Assembly: GCA_028290305.1 (NCBI GenBank)
Contig: JAQGKC010000274.1
Coordinates: forward strand, 1-9,207
DNA length: 9,207 nt
From: Bradyrhizobium sp.
GTDB lineage: Bacteria; Pseudomonadota; Alphaproteobacteria; Rhizobiales; Xanthobacteraceae
Reading direction: 5' to 3'
Shown here one piece after another: positions 1 to 9,207 of this stretch (position 1 is its first letter; every line of letters starts with the position of its first letter). The position numbers and the translations under genes are program-made. The notes beneath the pieces are model-generated. The model worked only from the letters and a program-made list of their open reading frames with translations, did not search any database and was not told where the DNA came from.

Positions 1-1484
1 CCGATCTGGCATTTCCGGCCATCTTCGTGCTGACGGGTCTCTTCATTCTTGCCTGTGGCACGACGCATGCCATGAGCGTCTGGACCCTGTGGTTTCCGGA
101 CTATCGGGTCGATGGCGGCATCAAAGCGGTCACGGCCCTGCTTTCCATCGGCACCGCGATCGCAATCTGGAAGGTGATGCCGCTGGCGTTGGCGTTGCCC
201 AGCACGGGGCAGCTTGAGCGGGCAAACAAGCTCCTTGGTGAAGAAATCACTCAGAGGCAACGCGCCGAAGCCGCGCTGCGCGAGATGAATACGGAGCTTG
301 AGCGGCGCGTCGCCGCCCGCACTGCGGACCTCCAGGAGGAAGTCGTTCGGCGCCGTAATACCGAAGCAACGCTCCGCGCGAGCGAGGAGCGCTGGCGTAG
401 CATGTTCGAGGCATCGGCGGTCGGTATCACCATCATGGATCAGCAGAACCACTTCGCCACCGCCAACGAGGCATTTCAGAAGATGGTTGGCTACACCGAG
501 CAGGAACTGCAGTCGCTCGGCCCGGTTGATATCACGCATGAAGATGACCGCCAGGCCACGCAGCAGATGATCCAGGACGCGCAGAGCGGCAAGCGCCAAG
601 ACTACCAGGCTGAGAAGCGGTATCGCCGTAAGGATGGCAAGGTGATCTGGGTCCGCGTCAGCACCGCACGGGCCCTCGATCCGAACAGTCCTATCCCCGG
701 CATCCCCACCCTCGTCGAGGATGTCACGGAGCGCAAGCGCGCGGAAATGGCCTGGCAAGACGCGCGGGAGGCGCTGTCGCGTGCCACGCGATTGACGGTG
801 ATGGGTGAGCTCTCGGCATCGATCGCCCACGAGATCAATCAGCCGCTTTCGGCAATCATCACCAACGGACAGGCTTGCGAACGCTTCCTTGGCTTCTCGC
901 CGCCCGATCTGGACGAGGTCAAGGACGCGGTTGGCGAGATCGTCCGCGACGGCAGGCGCGCGAGCGAGGTGCTCAGTCGCATCCGTGCGATGTCGAAGAA
1001 CTCCGCGCCGGAACGCGGGAAGGTGGATGTCAACCGCGCGATCGCGGAAGTGCTTGCGCTTACCCGTGATGAGCTACATCGACACCGCGTCTCTGTCCTG
1101 ACGGAGCTGCATCCAAACCTTCCGGTGATCATGGCCGATCGCGTTCAGTTGCAGCAGGTCGTTCTCAACCTCGTCATGAATGGTATCGACGCGATGCGCG
1201 CCGTCATGGATCGCCCCCGCAAGTTGACGGTTCGGTCTCAGCTCAACGATCAGGGCAACGTCATCGTCAACGTGGCGGATTCCGGCGTTGGTCTTGACCC
1301 GGCAAATCGGGATCGTATCTTTGACAGCTTCTTCACGACGAAACCCGAGGGGATGGGAATGGGGCTCGCAATCAGTAATACGATCATTCAAGCCCATAAC
1401 GGTCAGTTGTGGGCGGAATCTGGATCTCCCTTTGGCGCCGTCTTCGGCTTCACCTTGCCGTTGGCCGCAGGAGCAAGCCTATGA
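1..1484 (+). CDS. Sensor histidine kinase with ETR1-like membrane domain, PAS domain and kinase core (5' partial)
   Basis: The open frame runs in from the window edge, so the true start and first membrane helix are missing. Residues here are counted from the GTG at 27, used only as a reference. Two helices (about 1-24 and 31-55) match the second and third helices of the plant ethylene-receptor domain: a Cys-Gly-x-x-His motif (C10, H14; codons 54-56 and 66-68), a following W-T, then a lysine and T-A-x2-S-x2-T-A in the next helix. A charged coiled coil (about 62-118) leads to a PAS domain (about 118-238). The kinase core has the H-box around H268 (AHEINQPLSAI), the N-box NxxxNG at 381-386, G1 DSGVG at 418-422 and the G2 GMGMGLAIS stretch at 442-450, so it looks catalytically complete. 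It should autophosphorylate at H268 and pass phosphate to one or both downstream regulators, with which it forms an operon. The signal is not shown by the sequence; the family parallel suggests a small ligand such as ethylene through Cu(I). Confidence 0.93.
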   Translation, partial: DLAFPAIFVLTGLFILACGTTHAMSVWTLWFPDYRVDGGIKAVTALLSIGTAIAIWKVMPLALALPSTGQLERANKLLGEEITQRQRAEAALREMNTELERRVAARTADLQEEVVRRRNTEATLRASEERWRSMFEASAVGITIMDQQNHFATANEAFQKMVGYTEQELQSLGPVDITHEDDRQATQQMIQDAQSGKRQDYQAEKRYRRKDGKVIWVRVSTARALDPNSPIPGIPTLVEDVTERKRAEMAWQDAREALSRATRLTVMGELSASIAHEINQPLSAIITNGQACERFLGFSPPDLDEVKDAVGEIVRDGRRASEVLSRIRAMSKNSAPERGKVDVNRAIAEVLALTRDELHRHRVSVLTELHPNLPVIMADRVQLQQVVLNLVMNGIDAMRAVMDRPRKLTVRSQLNDQGNVIVNVADSGVGLDPANRDRIFDSFFTTKPEGMGMGLAISNTIIQAHNGQLWAESGSPFGAVFGFTLPLAAGASL

Positions 1485-1885
1485 CCGGTAATCAGTCAAT
1501 CGTCATGATCGTCGACGACGACGATTCTATAAGGAAAGCCGTCCGCCGCCTGATGAAGTCGTATGGCTTCGCCGTTGAGACTTTTGCCTCGGCAGCGGAA
1601 TATCTCGGTTCCGACCGCTTGGCGAAGACATCGTGCCTTGTCCTAGACGTCCATATGCCTGACATGAACGGGCTCGAGTTGCAAAAACGCCTCGTCGGAT
1701 CGGGCTACGGAATCCCGATCATCTTCATCACGGCTTTCACGGACGATAACGCGCGCGCCCAGGCGCTGAAGGCCGGGGCGGTTGCTTACCTCGCCAAGCC
1801 GTTTAGCGACGAGGAACTCCTTAGCTATATTCACATGGCCTTGCGGAACGCCGGAGCTGATGTTTCGGAGGCCTTGCGGCGGTAA
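1481..1885 (+). CDS. Single-domain response regulator (receiver only)
   Basis: A 134-residue CheY-like receiver with no output domain. The acidic pocket (DDDD at 12-15), phospho-acceptor D56 (VLDVHMPDMNGLE), T84 (FITAF) and K106 with cis-proline (AKPF) are all present, so it should be phosphorylated normally. I chose the ATG at 1481 because it sits 7 nt after an AGGAG (1469-1473) and overlaps the kinase stop codon in an ATGA junction, a sign of translational coupling; the frame extends further upstream but only inside the kinase gene. It is most similar in style to the FixJ/NodW receiver group. Stand-alone receivers of this kind, placed between a kinase and a FixJ-type regulator, commonly act as phosphate sinks, relays or protein-binding switches; which applies here cannot be read from sequence. 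Confidence 0.93.
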   Translation: MTGNQSIVMIVDDDDSIRKAVRRLMKSYGFAVETFASAAEYLGSDRLAKTSCLVLDVHMPDMNGLELQKRLVGSGYGIPIIFITAFTDDNARAQALKAGAVAYLAKPFSDEELLSYIHMALRNAGADVSEALRR

Positions 1886-1992: not shown

Positions 1993-2649
1993 ATGCCCTC
2001 TGAAGGCCCACCGGAACGCACTGTCTACATCGTGGACGATGACGCGGCGTTCCTTGGCTCGGTCGCACGCATTTTTCGCGCGGCGGGATTGACCGCGGTC
2101 TCGTATCAGACGGCGCTCGCATTTCTCGATGTAGCGCCCGACCTTATCGAGGGATGCTTGCTCCTCGATGTGTTAATGCCGGAAATGGACGGGCTGGAAC
2201 TGCAAGAGCGGCTCAACTCCCTTGGGTTCAACTTGCCGGTGATCGTGATGACCGCGAAAGGCGACGTAGAGACCGCGGTGCGGGCGATGAAAGCGGGCGC
2301 CGCGGATTTCATAGAGAAGCCCTTCGATGACGATCTGCTCCTCGAGGCGATCAACGCGGCATTTACGCGAGCCCGGGAGCCTACCCGCGGCGAAGCGATG
2401 AAGGCCGCCAAGCGGCTTGCGAGGTTAAGCCCGCGCGAGCGCCAGGTGCTCGACGGGCTCGCTGCGGGCCGCTTGACCAAGCAGATTGCCTACGATCTCG
2501 GCATCAGCGCACGCACCGTGGAGGAGCACCGCGCGCGCATGCTGGCGCGGCTGGGAACCCGCTCTCCCGCTCAAGCTGTTCGGCTGGCGGTGATGGCCGA
2601 GTTGGCCCCTGATCACCAGGAGTCCCGAGCCGCTCGTACCCGGCCATAG
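1993..2649 (+). CDS. FixJ/NodW-type response regulator, receiver plus LuxR-type HTH
   Basis: A 218-residue DNA-binding regulator. The receiver spans about 9-125, with acidic residues D15-D17, phospho-acceptor D59 (LLLDVLMPEMDGLE), T87 (VMTAKGD) and K109 (EKPFDDD). A short linker leads to a LuxR/FixJ-type helix-turn-helix at about 144-205 (LSPRERQVLDGLAAG, then QIAYDLGISARTVEEHRARM), which is the usual FixJ output. The ATG at 1993 is preferred over an in-frame GTG at 1939 because it has a GGGGAG ribosome site 6 nt upstream and gives the normal family N-terminus. It lies 107 nt after the lone receiver on the same strand and is probably the transcriptional output of the kinase. The last 37 nt overlap, tail to tail, the 3' end of the minus-strand DUF6894 frame. 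Its targets are unknown; FixJ itself in other species activates fixK. Confidence 0.94.
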   Translation: MPSEGPPERTVYIVDDDAAFLGSVARIFRAAGLTAVSYQTALAFLDVAPDLIEGCLLLDVLMPEMDGLELQERLNSLGFNLPVIVMTAKGDVETAVRAMKAGAADFIEKPFDDDLLLEAINAAFTRAREPTRGEAMKAAKRLARLSPRERQVLDGLAAGRLTKQIAYDLGISARTVEEHRARMLARLGTRSPAQAVRLAVMAELAPDHQESRAARTRP

Positions 2650-2993
2650 GTCGGCGCGTGCTGTGGGTTGCCGAAATAGGCAATGGCGCGCATTGCTTTA
2701 CCGGACAAAGATATTCGCCTGCGCGCGAATAAAAGCTTACGGCCGATTCGCACTCGGGTAATTTCCTGTCCCCGGTCATCGGTAACGAGAACGGACAATC
2801 CGTGCCAGCTCCTATCTTCCGCGAGTTCCCGGGCAAGCACGAAAGCATGCGCCGTGGCGTCGTCGGGAGTGGAAAAAACCGATCCGGTGTCGTCCGGATA
2901 GCGGCGGCCATTGTCGACGTCGAAATAGAACCGGCTTCCTTCAACCAAAACCCCGGCTGGGGATTCGTGCGGCCGATCAATTCCTGCAGACAA
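2613..2993 (-). CDS. DUF6894-domain protein with unusual flanks
   Basis: The core, about residues 20-85 counted from the TTG at 2993, matches the short uncharacterised DUF6894 family: RFYFDVDNGRRYPDDTG, then an alanine-rich helix (ATAHAFVLARELAED) and a terminal strand (GLSVLVTDDRGQEITRVRI). Family members usually begin a few residues before the first aromatic motif (MPRYFF-like) and have about 70-100 residues. Here there is no ATG: a TTG at 2993 or a TTG at 2948 are the only nearby starts and neither has a good ribosome site. The 40 residues after the domain are basic, unlike the family, and run into the 3' end of the FixJ-type gene. Upstream the same frame continues as a decayed LuxR-type sensing domain, so this may be an untranslated or degenerate gene. 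The function of DUF6894 is unknown. Confidence 0.6.
   Translation of the reverse strand: MSAGIDRPHESPAGVLVEGSRFYFDVDNGRRYPDDTGSVFSTPDDATAHAFVLARELAEDRSWHGLSVLVTDDRGQEITRVRIGRKLLFARRRISLSGKAMRAIAYFGNPQHAPTYGRVRAARDSW
2712..2731. terminator. Hairpin with 7-bp stem, weak terminator candidate
   Basis: TATTCGC (2712-2718) pairs with GCGAATA (2725-2731) across a 6-nt loop. On the minus strand it is followed by the moderately T-rich TCTTTGTCC, which could end minus-strand transcripts just after the DUF6894 core; on the plus strand the tail is AAAGC, which does not fit. The stem is AT-containing and short, so this is a weak candidate. It lies inside the atypical C-terminal extension of the DUF6894 frame. 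Confidence 0.25.
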
Positions 2994-3426: not shown

Positions 3427-3444
3427 GTTTGACGGCCGTCAAAC
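3427..3444. promoter_or_regulatory. 18-bp perfect palindrome containing a FixK/FNR-type box
   Basis: GTTTGACGGCCGTCAAAC is its own reverse complement. Its inner 14 bases (3429-3442) are TTGAC-GGCC-GTCAA, an exact match to the TTGA-N6-TCAA pattern used by CRP/FNR-family oxygen regulators such as FixK and FNR. If it sits at the usual -41.5, the plus-strand -10 would fall near 3465, where the sequence is AT-rich (AATATTTGTAT). Being symmetric, it could equally serve the leftward remnant gene, whose ATG candidates (3381, 3369) lie 48-60 nt away. Binding is inferred, not shown. Confidence 0.65.
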
Positions 3445-3497: not shown

Positions 3498-3511
3498 TTG
3501 ACAATCGTCAA
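3498..3511. promoter_or_regulatory. Second FixK/FNR-type box
   Basis: TTGAC-AATC-GTCAA is a second exact TTGA-N6-TCAA match, centred 69 bp downstream of the first and 119-132 nt before the TTG chosen for the stress-protein gene. A transcript started from this box would begin around 3545, which is after the upstream ATG at 3531 and so argues for a start further downstream. The -10 position (near 3534) is less AT-rich than for the first box, so it may instead modulate the promoter driven by the upstream box. Confidence 0.6.
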
Positions 3512-3629
3512 GGCGCAATCGGTGGTCGCGATGAGAAGGAGTAATCAGCATTATTGGATCGGCTGCGCCCGCTGCTGTCGATCCGCCGTTTCTTGCAAAG
3601 GGCGTTTCTTGCCAAGGGATCGCGTCACG

Positions 3630-4250
3630 TTGATCACGGTCTGCCGTCTCTATGATTCATACGCTGACGCCAATCGGATCATTCTGATGCTCGAAGCCAG
3701 GGGCCTGCTGCCGTCGGAAACCAGCGTGATATCAAACAATTGCGATACCTGGTACCACGCCCCGAAGACCTCCAATGTGGTTCCTTTGCGGAACGATCGC
3801 GCGAGTGGCCATGCCGGTGGCAAGGTCGAAGGAGCGGCGATCGGTGCTGCGATCGGCGCAACGGCGGCGACGGCGGCCAGTCTCGTGACCATGCTGGCGA
3901 TCCCCGGTGTCGGCACTGTCGTCGGCGCCGGATGGCTCGCCGCCATGTTGGGCAGCATGGCGATCGGCGGCGTGGCCGGCGGCCTGTTTGGTGCGCTGAC
4001 CAATGCCGGCATCAGCGAGGAAGACGCGCAGGTTTATGTCGAGGGCGTGCGCCGTGGCGGAACGCTGATCATCGCAAAAGTGCCGCAGTCCGAATTACCG
4101 AAGATTGAGGCGATGATGAGCCAGTCCGCGGTGAAACTTGAGGAGCGCAGGGACCTTTATCGCAAATCGGGGTGGCAGTCATTCGATCCGAACGCCGTGC
4201 CTTATACCGCCGATCAGGTTCGCAGCGAACGCGCACTGCATGCTCGCTAG
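3630..4250 (+). CDS. Glycine-zipper stress-type protein (general stress protein 17M-like fold)
   Basis: A 206-residue protein if begun at the TTG at 3630 (AAGGGA 10 nt upstream). The N-terminus (ITVCRLYDSYADANRIILML, then an SVISNN strand) and the segment at about 132-162 (AQVYVEGVRRGGTLIIAKVP, then a helix) look like the two halves of the small alpha-beta domain seen in general stress protein 17M/YflT-type proteins. Between them, at about 62-126, is a glycine/alanine-rich stretch with GAAIGA, GVGTVVGAG and GGVAGGLFGAL patterns, a glycine zipper likely to insert in or associate with membranes. The C-terminal 40 residues are charged. The frame is open up to 3498 and an ATG at 3531 would add 33 residues, but that N-terminus (with several Cys and Arg) looks non-family and overlaps the likely promoter. 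It heads a run of membrane-protein genes and lies behind two FixK/FNR-like boxes. Function unknown. Confidence 0.8.
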   Translation: MITVCRLYDSYADANRIILMLEARGLLPSETSVISNNCDTWYHAPKTSNVVPLRNDRASGHAGGKVEGAAIGAAIGATAATAASLVTMLAIPGVGTVVGAGWLAAMLGSMAIGGVAGGLFGALTNAGISEEDAQVYVEGVRRGGTLIIAKVPQSELPKIEAMMSQSAVKLEERRDLYRKSGWQSFDPNAVPYTADQVRSERALHAR

Positions 4251-4277: not shown

Positions 4278-4517
4278 GTGATTCTCGAACAATTGATGTT
4301 GGGAATCGTGGTGCTCGCTGTGGTGTTGCTGCTGCTGCCGTTCCTGCTCGCGATGGCCGGCATCGGGGCGGCGATGCTGCTCGCCTCCGCCGCCGTGCTG
4401 GGCGCGCTGGTTTTTTGGCTGGCATTTCCCGGTGCTTACGGGCTCGCGGTCCTGCTGCTTGCGCTGGTCATCGGACTGCTCCTGGTCGATCGACGATCTC
4501 GGCACGGCGCTTCCTGA
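4278..4517 (+). CDS. Small, highly hydrophobic membrane protein
   Basis: A 79-residue protein begun at GTG 4278, with a good GGAGG (4268-4272) 5 nt upstream, 27 nt after the preceding stop codon and so probably co-transcribed. Nearly the whole chain is hydrophobic: about 5-27, 29-50 and 54-70 form two or three membrane helices, ending with a basic tail (DRRSRH) that should lie in the cytoplasm. I do not recognise a named family. The neighbours (glycine-zipper protein, BAX-inhibitor-1 remnant, DUF2905) are also membrane-associated, which suggests a role in the cell envelope, but nothing in the sequence shows an activity. Confidence 0.7.
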   Translation: MILEQLMLGIVVLAVVLLLLPFLLAMAGIGAAMLLASAAVLGALVFWLAFPGAYGLAVLLLALVIGLLLVDRRSRHGAS

Positions 4518-4563: not shown

Positions 4564-5344
4564 ATGCAACCGATGATACCGCGCCCGAAAAAAGTCGAGC
4601 CAACCGCACAGCAGCAGCCCATGAGCTACTACGAATCCAACGCTCAAAGACCTTCCGAGGGAATGGCTTTTCCGCCCCCGGTCGGCGCCCGGATCGACGC
4701 GGGACTGCGGGCTTATATGCAGCGCGTCTGCGGCTATATGGCCGGTGGCCTCGCATTGACCGGCATACGCCGCCGCCGCTTCCGGTTTCTAGCAGGCCAT
4801 CGCCGCGACGCCGCTGATCTGGATCGTTATGCTGGCACCGCTCGGCTTTGTCCTGGTGCTGAGCTTCGGCATCCAAGCGGATGAGCGCGGCAACGGCGAC
4901 GGTGCTGTTCTGGATCTATGCCGCCGTGATGGGGCTGTCGCCGGGCGGCACCTTCCTGGTCTTCACGGGCGCCTCGATTGCGCGCGTGTTCTTCATCACT
5001 GCGGCAACCTACGCCGCGATGAGCCTCTACGGCTATTCCACGAGATCCGATCTTTCGGGGGTCGTTCCTCCTGATGGGACTTGTTGGCATCGTCATCGCG
5101 TCTATCGTCAACATCTTTGTCGGGTCAAGCGCCCTTCAAGTTCGCCGTCTCCGTGATCGGCGTCCTCGTATTCGTTAGTCTTACCGCTTACGACACGCAA
5201 CGAATCAAGGAGATGTATCTAGAGTCAGACACGGCCGAAATCGCGGATAAGAAAGCGGTGCTCGGTGCGCTCGCGCTCTATCTCGACTTCATAAATCTTT
5301 TCATGATGCTGCTGCAATTGTTCGGTCAGCGCCGGGAAAATTGA
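4564..5344 (+). pseudogene. BAX inhibitor-1 / YccA-YetJ family membrane protein, disrupted
   Basis: Pieced together, five consecutive frames rebuild a BI-1 family protein of about 255 residues. Piece 1 (4564 or 4621 to about 4764) gives GARIDAGLRAYMQRVCGYMAG. Piece 2 (to about 4876) gives AYAAAASGF, a TAG stop at 4790-4792 where the family has Tyr or a similar residue, then QAIAATPLIWIVMLAPLGF. Piece 3 (4881 to about 5060) gives MSAATATVLFWIYAAVMGLS and an LYGYSTRSDLSG motif. Piece 4 (5062 to about 5139) gives SFLLMGLVGIVIASIVNIFV. Piece 5 (5141-5344) gives FAVSVIGVLVF, TAYDTQRIKEMY and LYLDFINLFMMLLQLFG. The last two contain the conserved aspartates that form the pH latch in this Ca2+-leak channel family. 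Every junction changes frame by +1; at 4877 and 5140 one extra G explains it, and at 5061 a loss of five bases does. Four shifts plus a stop mean no functional product is expected, unless the sequence itself is faulty here. Confidence 0.85.
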
Positions 5345-6905: not shown

Positions 6906-7208
6906 GGGCTCCCTGGACCGAGTCGAAACATTCGACGAACCAAGGGCGATCGCGACGAAATACAACAACACAAGAGACCGCGGATCGCGCAAGGCAACGC
7001 CGACTGGAGAAAAGGAAGTGTCTACGCTTCCGGAACGGTGCTCAGGAAACTGCAATGAGCCGGTTTGGTTCCTGAGAGATGAGTGAGCGGGTGGGTGTTC
7101 ACATTGATGAACGAGTGGCAGGCACGTTGACCGCCATCAATGCTCACGATAGCGCGGACCTCGACAATGCTCCGGGGGAAGCCTCACGTTCTCTGCGGGA
7201 GTATTTTG
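6906..7208. other. Divergent intergenic region between DUF6894 and UspA genes
   Basis: About 300 nt without a recognisable gene. Open frames exist in it on both strands, but their products look like nothing known and lack good ribosome sites. The right part carries the FixK/FNR-like box at 7127-7140 and the promoter of the UspA gene; I see no clear promoter for the leftward gene. Confidence 0.6.
7127..7140. promoter_or_regulatory. FixK/FNR-type box upstream of the UspA gene
   Basis: TTGAC-CGCC-ATCAA is an exact TTGA-N6-TCAA match. If centred at -41.5, the -10 falls at about 7163-7168, where the sequence is GACAAT, and transcription would start near 7175, leaving a leader of roughly 34 nt before the ATG at 7209. 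This is the geometry of a class II activator site and makes anaerobic or microaerobic induction of the downstream operon likely, though unproven. Confidence 0.7.
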
Positions 7209-8042
7209 ATGATCAAGGACATTATCGTCAATCTCGAGCATCGAATCGCACGCGATCCGGCCCGCGATTTTGCCATCAGTATCGCGGAGACGTTCGACGC
7301 ACATGTCGCCGGAGTTGCCTTCTCATATGCGCTGGAGTTTCCCGGCTATGTCATGCTGGAAATCCCACCCGATATCTTGGCGCAGGCGATCGCCGAGAGC
7401 GAGAAAGCCGCTTTGGCCGCGATAGAACGCTTCGATGCCGCCGCCCGGCGCAGCCTGGTCTCCGCCGAACGTCGCCTCACTAAGACCATGGGGGCGGCCG
7501 CGCCCCAAATCGTGGCGACACTCGCCCGGCGTTTTGATCTTAGCGTGTTCATGCAGTCCGAGCCGAACGGCGTCGACAATGATGACATGATCGAAGCTTC
7601 CCTGTTCGAGTCCGGGCGCCCGCTGATCGTGGTGCCCTACATCCAGAAGGATGGATTAAAGCTCGACCACGTGGTGTGTTGCTGGGACGGCAGCCGCGCG
7701 GCGGCGCGCGCCATCAACGATGGGTTGCCGCTGCTGGTCAAGGCGAAGACGGTCGACCTATTGATCGTGCTGAATGAAAAGACGGACAATCCCCCGAACG
7801 TCATTCGCGGCGCCGAAATGGCGAAACATCTCGCGCGCCATGACGTCAAGGTTCAGATCGTGACAATCCCGGCGGCCGACATCGAGGTCTGCAACGCGAT
7901 CCTGTCTTACGTCGCCGACGTTTCCGGAACGTTGATCGTGATGGGCGGCTATGGCCACGCCAAGCTGCGCGAACTCATTCTGGGGGGCGTGACCCGCGAC
8001 ATGCTGAAGTCGATGACCGCCCCGGTGTTCATGTCGCATTGA
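7209..8042 (+). CDS. Tandem-domain universal stress protein (UspA family)
   Basis: A 277-residue protein of two UspA-like domains, about 1-145 and 152-277. The N-terminal half begins MIKDIIVNLE and looks degenerate, with no nucleotide-binding glycines. The C-terminal half has the strand-helix pattern LDHVVCCWDGSRAAARAIND and ends with MGGYGHAKLRELILGGVT (245-262), which fits the ATP-binding G-x2-G-x9-G motif (G246, G249, G259). The ATG at 7209 is chosen for its GGGAG (7197-7201) 7 nt upstream; an in-frame ATG-like start at 7140 falls inside the operator and before the likely transcription start. Usp proteins help cells survive starvation, oxygen limitation and respiratory stress. The gene lies behind a FixK/FNR-like box and 32 nt upstream of a DUF1772-like gene, with which it probably forms an operon. 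Confidence 0.93.
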   Translation: MIKDIIVNLEHRIARDPARDFAISIAETFDAHVAGVAFSYALEFPGYVMLEIPPDILAQAIAESEKAALAAIERFDAAARRSLVSAERRLTKTMGAAAPQIVATLARRFDLSVFMQSEPNGVDNDDMIEASLFESGRPLIVVPYIQKDGLKLDHVVCCWDGSRAAARAINDGLPLLVKAKTVDLLIVLNEKTDNPPNVIRGAEMAKHLARHDVKVQIVTIPAADIEVCNAILSYVADVSGTLIVMGGYGHAKLRELILGGVTRDMLKSMTAPVFMSH

Positions 8043-8513: not shown

Positions 8514-8527
8514 TTGATGGCTATCAA
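8514..8527. promoter_or_regulatory. FixK/FNR-type box upstream of the hibernation-factor gene
   Basis: TTGAT-GGCT-ATCAA is an exact match to the classical FNR/FixK consensus TTGAT-N4-ATCAA. It begins one base after the preceding stop codon. With the centre at -41.5, the -10 falls on GAATATC (8550-8556) and the start near 8562, about 41 nt before the ATG at 8603. This is the best-scoring of the four boxes. Confidence 0.72.
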
Positions 8528-8602: not shown

Positions 8603-9207
8603 ATGCTTCACATCGATATTCCAACGCTCGCGGAGTTCAAGCACCTTGCGCAGATCAAGGGCGAGATTTGCGTTTCCCTGTATTTACCGACGTCCCCGCT
8701 GGGCAAGAATGCCAGGGTCAATCGCGTGGCGTTCAAGGATATTGCCAAGGAAGCACTGTCGCAGTTGAAGGAAGCCGGTGCTGACAAGAAGGACATCGTC
8801 GCCTTCGAGGCGCGTTTCGAGCAACTCGCAGGGCCTGAACATGACGTCCAGGACGAAGACAAGATCAGAAAGCTGCAGCGCGCAAAGCCGGATCCGATCG
8901 AGCAGTTCTGGCGCTACCAAGCGAGCGGGTTGGGAGTGCTGGCCACGTCGGGCATGATGCAGACGTTCCGCCTGCCTAACCGGCCGAAGCCGTTGGCCGA
9001 AGTGGCGGACCGATTTCACCTGACGCCACTGATACGGGCCATGACGTCGCCGCACGACGTCTTCGTGCTCGCGCTGGCGGAGGAGAGCGTTCGACTGATC
9101 CACGCGTTTGCCAATTTCCCGCCGCAGCGGCTGCAAGTTCCAGATCTTCCCGGCAGCGTCGAAGAGGCGACGCATCGCCCATCCTTTCACGTACGGGCTC
9201 CGCGCCG
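8603..9207 (+). CDS. baeRF-family ribosome hibernation / release-factor-like protein (3' partial)
   Basis: The first 201 residues are visible and the frame is open to the window edge. The start MLHIDIPTLAEFKHLAQIKG, followed by EICVSLYLPTSPLGKNARVN, is characteristic of the bacterial archaeo-eukaryotic release-factor (baeRF) proteins, known in NCBI naming as ribosome hibernation factors of the AOC03_06830 type. It continues with RVAFKDIAKEALSQLKEAGA, the FWRYQASGLGVLATSGMMQT strand pair, FRLPNRPKPLAEVADRFHLT, and PLIRAMTSPHDVFVLALAEE, all in family order. These proteins are related to eRF1/aRF1 and are linked to stalled or dormant ribosomes. The ATG at 8603 has GAGGGG (8593-8598) upstream. 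It follows its own FixK/FNR-like box, so it is probably a separate unit from the UspA genes but under the same regulator. The catalytic or ribosome-contacting C-terminal part lies outside the window. Confidence 0.88.
   Translation, partial: MLHIDIPTLAEFKHLAQIKGEICVSLYLPTSPLGKNARVNRVAFKDIAKEALSQLKEAGADKKDIVAFEARFEQLAGPEHDVQDEDKIRKLQRAKPDPIEQFWRYQASGLGVLATSGMMQTFRLPNRPKPLAEVADRFHLTPLIRAMTSPHDVFVLALAEESVRLIHAFANFPPQRLQVPDLPGSVEEATHRPSFHVRAPR

Follow-up and report, generated by a model that had tools for sequence, protein, structure and literature searches.

Bacterial receptors of the ETR1 type are already known as a kind. In plant ETR1 the copper site consists of Asp25, Cys65 and His69 (PMC12643061), of which the cysteine and the histidine are also described as ligands in PMC13012798, and seven residues are reported to be required for ethylene binding (PMC11819568, PMC6682694). 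Putative receptors of this type are attributed to many soil proteobacteria in PMC11819568, the available text of which names very few microbes for which ethylene binding has been shown. According to the same paper residues 1-130 of AzoEtr1, fused to GST, bind ethylene, and slr1213, the regulator that belongs to SynEtr1 of Synechocystis, activates the transcription of a small RNA. Plant receptors, in contrast, are said there to do most of their signalling without His-kinase activity. Among the open-licence papers listed, judged by title and the start of the abstract, none deals with an ethylene receptor of Bradyrhizobium.

The locus described here lies on a 9,207-nucleotide stretch of DNA from Bradyrhizobium sp. 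(contig JAQGKC010000274.1), referred to below as the window. Sequence shows an ETR1_N domain and its characteristic residues, kinase and receiver domains that are complete, and an operon-like overlap of genes. It is likely that the locus encodes a bacterial histidine kinase that is a copper-dependent ethylene receptor of the ETR1_N type and acts through two regulators.

The sensor domain and its first helix

The gene for the sensor histidine kinase is truncated at its 5′ end by the edge of the window (3..1484, on the forward strand, as are all features below unless stated otherwise), and the translation of this frame contains FILACGTTHAMSVWTLWFPDYRVDGGIKAVTALLSIGTAIAIW. Residues 1-65 of the product match the Pfam family ETR1_N (PF25487) with an E value of 7.9e-21 and 74.6 bits, the cut-off being 27, and no other sensor family was found at E <= 1e-3 when this stretch was scanned against Pfam. 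The visible part of the domain (3..197) comprises helices 2 and 3 together with the start of the post-helix-1 stretch. An initial annotation, made from the sequence of the window, had called the domain ethylene-receptor-like, and the profile search places it in this family; the signatures it listed (Cys-Gly-x-x-His, W-T, a lysine and T-A-x2-S-x2-T-A) are all present, as CGTTH, WT, Lys and TALLSIGTA. The match spans positions 33-97 of the 97 in the profile, and the absent ones are consistent with sequence lying beyond the edge of the window, where helix 1 had been said to be. A search of solved structures with the sensor fragment gave one match in the PDB at E <= 1, a phosphate-binding protein (E 0.067), which was taken as a chance hit.

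Searching proteins with the sensor part gave 392 at E <= 1e-5, the best 120 of which were examined. One of them, P0003 (550 aa), matches the visible part of the window protein at every residue (493 of 493) and has 57 more at its N-terminus, by which measure 57 codons are missing from the window gene; a second, P0002, agrees in 492 of 493. P0003 also carries PF25487, and its hydrophobic stretches fit three helices. The extra 57 residues include YMPHGMCFLWQPELIALHVASDSLIALAYYSIPVALIYFVMKRT, in which the helix-1 Asp is followed by Tyr, Ile and Pro at the spacing of ETR1. Helix 1 is read here from P0003, not from the DNA of the window. The initial annotation had staked its reading on an upstream helix with this Asp, and P0003 has such a helix with D35.

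The seven binding residues of ETR1 are found in P0003 as D35, Y42, I45, P46, I72, C75 and H79. For four of the seven we take the ETR1 numbers to be Y32, I35, P36 and I62. The window's own DNA encodes the last three, all in helix 2: the Ile codon at 45..47 aligns with ETR1 Ile62, and the Cys codon at 54..56 and the His codon at 66..68 align with Cys65 and His69, the Cu(I) ligands. The comparison with plant ETR1 and with SynEtr1 was made by way of Pfam, AzoEtr1 and published residue lists rather than by direct alignment. The Lys codon of helix 3 (123..125) may specify a salt-bridge partner for the essential Asp. A salt bridge between a conserved Asp and a conserved Lys has been proposed (PMC13012798), and since the available text of that paper gives no number for the Lys, we infer that it corresponds to the one in helix 3.

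An alignment of 70 domains was assembled from 69 distinct sequences, representing 87 locus hits, together with P0003, the alignment profile having been seeded with 17 rows of an earlier 62-row alignment. The Asp is kept in 66 of the 70, Tyr in 67, the residue corresponding to Ile35 in 68, Pro in 67, that corresponding to Ile62 in 66, Cys in 66, His in 69 and the helix-3 Lys in 68, figures that are biased upward because the 70 domains are mostly from the best-scoring loci. Four loci (L187, L188, L189 and L190) each lack two or more of these eight residues. L186 is cut at helix 1, and L171 and L175 have Val in place of one Ile.

A further motif, Pro-His-Gly-x-Cys, precedes helix 1 (residues 16-20 of P0003), with its His in 64/70 domains and its Cys in 65/70. 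Its conservation comes close to that of the copper ligands, and it tends to vanish together with them: in L187-L190 the Cys of this motif is absent from all four and the His from three, and L193, which of the eight residues lacks the helix-2 Cys only, is also without the His of the motif. For cyanobacterial receptors, which have a single Cys at the N-terminus, a role of that residue in dimerisation has been suggested (PMC6682694).

Taken together, the ETR1_N match, the helix-1 Asp and the 61% identity of the sensor to that of AzoEtr1, which binds ethylene, support the earlier suggestion that this bacterium may sense ethylene through copper, and the window protein is predicted to bind both. It is unlikely that the domain binds copper but responds physiologically to a different small alkene or gas, or to the availability of copper. 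A sequence does not reveal ligand specificity, the conserved His-Gly-x-Cys before helix 1 offers a further possible metal or disulphide site, and the kinase is located among genes with FixK-type boxes, but all seven ethylene-binding residues are kept and the 61%-identical sensor of AzoEtr1 is reported to bind ethylene (PMC11819568).

The kinase core and its two response regulators

A PAS domain (387..701; PF00989, residues 129-233) is the sole Pfam domain between the ETR1_N sensor and the kinase core, which is made up of a HisKA dimerisation and phosphoacceptor domain (801..1004; PF00512, residues 267-334) and a HATPase_c catalytic domain (1137..1466; PF02518, residues 379-488). The domains of the kinase and of the regulators are complete by profile. 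The first regulator (1481..1885; 134 aa) consists of a receiver only (PF00072), and its start codon overlaps the stop codon of the kinase in the sequence ATGA; the gene and the overlap recur in 4/4 orthologous loci. The second (1993..2649; 218 aa) is of the FixJ/LuxR type, with a receiver and a GerE helix-turn-helix (PF00072, PF00196). All four orthologous loci have both, in unchanged order. The two receivers to which the initial annotation had seen the kinase wired are two separate response-regulator genes downstream of it.

Within 4.5 kb downstream of 27 other ETR1_N loci examined, no open reading frame matching the helix-turn-helix of the second regulator was found at E <= 1e-6 (0/27), the contig ending before 4.5 kb in L150, L194, L198 and L202; two of these 27 loci, L149 and L153, have such a match upstream. 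L194 has a regulator that is 56% identical to the first one. Because the kinase comes with a DNA-binding partner alongside it, target genes could be found directly, unlike those of AzoEtr1, whose regulator is described as having no recognisable output motif (PMC11819568).

The FixJ-like regulators downstream, and a score of 182 bits for the kinase against the FixL model, would fit a FixL-type oxygen sensor joined to an unrelated membrane domain. That score, however, is far under the curated cut-off of 850, the AtoS model gives a higher one (215 bits, cut-off 646), and the membrane domain is ETR1_N, all of which makes a FixL-type sensor most improbable. Against the FixJ model the second regulator scores 212 bits, under the cut-off of 255.

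The visible part of the sensor is under purifying selection. Compared with four orthologues it has dN of 0.014-0.070 and dN/dS of 0.062-0.162, the corresponding values being 0.056-0.168 and 0.199-0.269 for the PAS domain, 0.058-0.062 and 0.104-0.116 for the kinase part, and 0.102-0.137 and 0.156-0.224 for the first regulator. The dN of the sensor is below that of the kinase in three of the four pairs and is the lowest of all parts in three of the four; in the pair with L148 it is 0.070 against 0.062 for the kinase, and the sensor dN/dS of 0.162 exceeds the kinase's. These values bear on the idea that the ETR1_N domain is a vestigial membrane anchor and that the signal enters through PAS only. 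A PAS domain is indeed present, but sensor dN is lower than PAS dN in each of the four pairs and the residues of the metal site are kept, so that a mere anchor is scarcely credible.

If the protein is an ethylene receptor, its three membrane helices would hold Cu(I) through two helix-2 residues, Cys and His, together with the helix-1 Asp, and ethylene would bind at the copper. The state of the copper site would pass through PAS to the HisKA/HATPase core, which would phosphorylate the receiver-only regulator, the FixJ-type regulator or both, and the FixJ-type regulator would then change the transcription of presumed target genes. Ethylene would probably lower the activity of the kinase; this is the weakest step, for which ETR1 and the proposals published on SynEtr1 and AzoEtr1 served as analogies. 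In PMC11819568 ethylene is predicted to inhibit the autophosphorylation of AzoEtr1 and indirect evidence is cited for SynEtr1, and inhibition is therefore taken as the likelier sign.

Distribution and the stress-gene island

ETR1_N was found in 181 of 265 Bradyrhizobium genomes and in 28 of 385 sampled across the class, and in each case in 0/14 control genomes. The genomes of the genus have up to five matches each, in open frames of widely differing length. A match to P0003 at E <= 1e-60 is present in 214/265 genus genomes, and a full-length orthologue (84-91%) in 4/265 when five candidates were scored per genome; the orthologue at 91% is that of genome G095. Among the matches listed, the source of the relatives P0078, P0105 and P0111 is named as Bradyrhizobium, and the gene order of the window is common to four Bradyrhizobium genomes. 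A plasmid origin was considered and set aside: 191 plasmid records match, but 80% coverage of the 3 kb query is reached by none, with identities of 80-90% in seven and 60-80% in 184, and the 20 of the 191 records listed cover 10-23%. The same holds for a phage origin, there being a single match to the kinase core, at 32% identity, in 50,697 phage records (E <= 1e-20).

Downstream of the kinase the window carries a conserved island. It includes a DUF6894 gene on the reverse strand (2613..2993; PF21834), which is syntenic in L145-L148, a gene at 3600..4250 with a weak DUF1269 match below the cut-off, whose relative in L148 gave no Pfam match, a universal stress protein, or USP (7212..8042; PF00582), and a baeRF-family gene cut by the end of the window (8603..9205; PF18855, PF18851). 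A Bax1-I homologue (4621..5344) is broken over several frames in the window and has an intact 244-aa relative in L148; the breaks reflect either true decay of the gene or an error in sequencing. Each of the 16 window queries, among them two pieces of a single gene, was found in L145-L148, with the order unchanged. Genes for a MerR-type protein, DnaJ, GrpE and HSP70 adjoin the island in L148 (2-2771) and occur with it in L145, L208, L211 and L213 as well. On the other side of the kinase L148 has TMEM175 and FMN oxidoreductase genes.

The island is marked by boxes of the FixK/FNR type. TTGA-N6-TCAA is a FixK box (PMC3050613), and the FixK2 consensus is given as TTG(A/C)-N6-(T/G)CAA (PMC5582078), which the boxes of the window fit. 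There are four TTGA-N6-TCAA boxes against 0.11 expected, and 0/200 shuffles reach four. The first is TTGACGGCCGTCAA (3429..3442); the second, TTGACAATCGTCAA (3498..3511), is centred 96 nt upstream of the anchor for the gene at 3600, the third, TTGACCGCCATCAA (7127..7140), 79 nt before that of the USP gene, and the fourth, TTGATGGCTATCAA (8514..8527), 83 nt before that of the baeRF gene. The corresponding distances in 4/4 relatives are 83-88 nt (3600 gene), 76-79 nt (USP) and 61-88 nt (baeRF), so that in all five islands the box centre lies 61-96 nt before the three anchors. A box before the gene at 4278 is present in all four relatives and absent from the window. The five islands hold 35 boxes, or 3.94 per 10 kb, compared with 0.135 per 10 kb in 15 regions round other ETR1_N loci (3 in 222 kb) and 0.26 per 10 kb in 16 loci named as Bradyrhizobium (4 in 152 kb); the islands are related and therefore not independent. 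The 420 nt preceding the second regulator contain no box in any of the five loci, and neither do the 420 nt preceding the kinase in the relatives (four loci, since the upstream region of the window kinase lies outside the window).

A 221-aa protein of the island has a match at E <= 1e-30 in 117/265 genus genomes, and ten of the matched places were examined in detail. Four of them (L208, L209, L210 and L213) retain a large share of the genes along with 5-7 boxes and are without the ETR kinase, the contig of L209 ending 1.7 kb upstream of the 3600-type gene. A fifth, L211, is a second copy of the island in genome G095, with three boxes, both regulators and only 58 C-terminal residues of the kinase. 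In the remaining five no more than one or two genes are shared and the boxes number 0-3; one of these five, L212, begins at a contig end. In L211 (about 12433-12606) the kinase fragment is, by eye, joined in frame to a transposase-like start, and a large kinase-like open reading frame lies upstream.

The boxes thus belong to the island, and the ETR sensor is an optional addition to it. That the boxes are the output of the ETR two-component system is not borne out, there being box-bearing islands without the kinase, and for the same reason the sensor can be called only a candidate regulator of the island. It is a tentative and rather doubtful proposal that certain Bradyrhizobium have joined an ethylene sensor to a different kinase and a FixJ-like factor at the head of a FixK-box stress island, where ethylene, which signals waterlogging of the soil, stress of the root or nodulation, would be read together with low oxygen to set the expression of stress genes.

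Origin of the kinase and comparison with known systems

The nearest kinase cores were compared in five loci (L001, L003, L004, L009 and L012; L002 was left out). Over about 233 residues the window core is 55% identical to that of L001, 53% to L009, 51% to L012 and 48-49% to L003 and L004, and no ETR1_N is detectable by profile in these five kinases, nor any ETR1_N match anywhere in the genomes of L001, L009 and L012. Compared with the kinases of eight ETR1_N proteins, that of the window is 89% identical to P0105, of the same family, and 25-37% to the other seven. Since the nearest examined cores (51-55%) are without ETR1_N, sensor and kinase have probably recombined, an ETR1_N domain having been joined to a different kinase; the evidence consists of identities rather than a tree.

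AzoEtr1 is the closest characterised relative found. It was taken to be L143 (Azospirillum brasilense Sp7, NZ_CP012915.1, 5962-7539) on the grounds of strain, size and layout: the kinase of L143 has 525 aa and its gene overlaps that of a 135-aa receiver downstream, and both the strain and these sizes agree with what PMC11819568 reports for AzoEtr1 and the regulator that goes with it. The sensors are 60.9% identical over 115 residues (56% over 128 columns of the 70-domain alignment), the order ETR-PAS-HK is the same, and in both a receiver-only regulator, of 134 and 135 aa respectively, overlaps the stop codon of the kinase. This similarity of the sensor is not special, as the median identity of AzoEtr1 to the 69 other domains is 53%, and the 56% of P0003 is only slightly higher. 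The two systems differ in their kinases (26-27% identical) and receivers (24%), and their PAS parts give no meaningful alignment; the window system also has a second, FixJ-type DNA-binding regulator and a different neighbourhood. The identities of kinase and regulator (27% and 24%), together with the nearer cores in kinases without ETR1_N, speak against orthology with AzoEtr1 in the sense of a shared lineage, judged by identity rather than by a tree, and because the system is unlike AzoEtr1 outside the sensor, its output is not predictable from that of AzoEtr1. The initial annotation had contrasted the layout of the locus with that of plants. The separate regulators bear this out, but a kinase with a receiver is a layout shared with AzoEtr1, leaving the second, DNA-binding regulator as the exception.

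SynEtr1, as described in PMC11819568, is likewise an ethylene receptor of a bacterium and passes phosphate to a regulator; it is described as a receptor for light and ethylene, whereas the window kinase has only PAS between sensor and kinase. With FixLJ the system shares FixJ-like regulators and a PAS-kinase, and it differs in its ETR1_N sensor and in scores under the cut-offs of the FixL and FixJ models. With plant ETR1 it shares the copper-site residues that correspond to Asp25, Cys65 and His69 and the same signature in helices 2 and 3. In ETR1, however, a GAF domain follows the sensor, whereas the window kinase is without GAF in the Pfam scan and has PAS instead, and its receivers are separate genes. 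To the known kind of bacterial receptor this locus would add a Bradyrhizobium-type system, with probable recombination of sensor and kinase, a FixJ-type partner and the setting of a FixK-box island.
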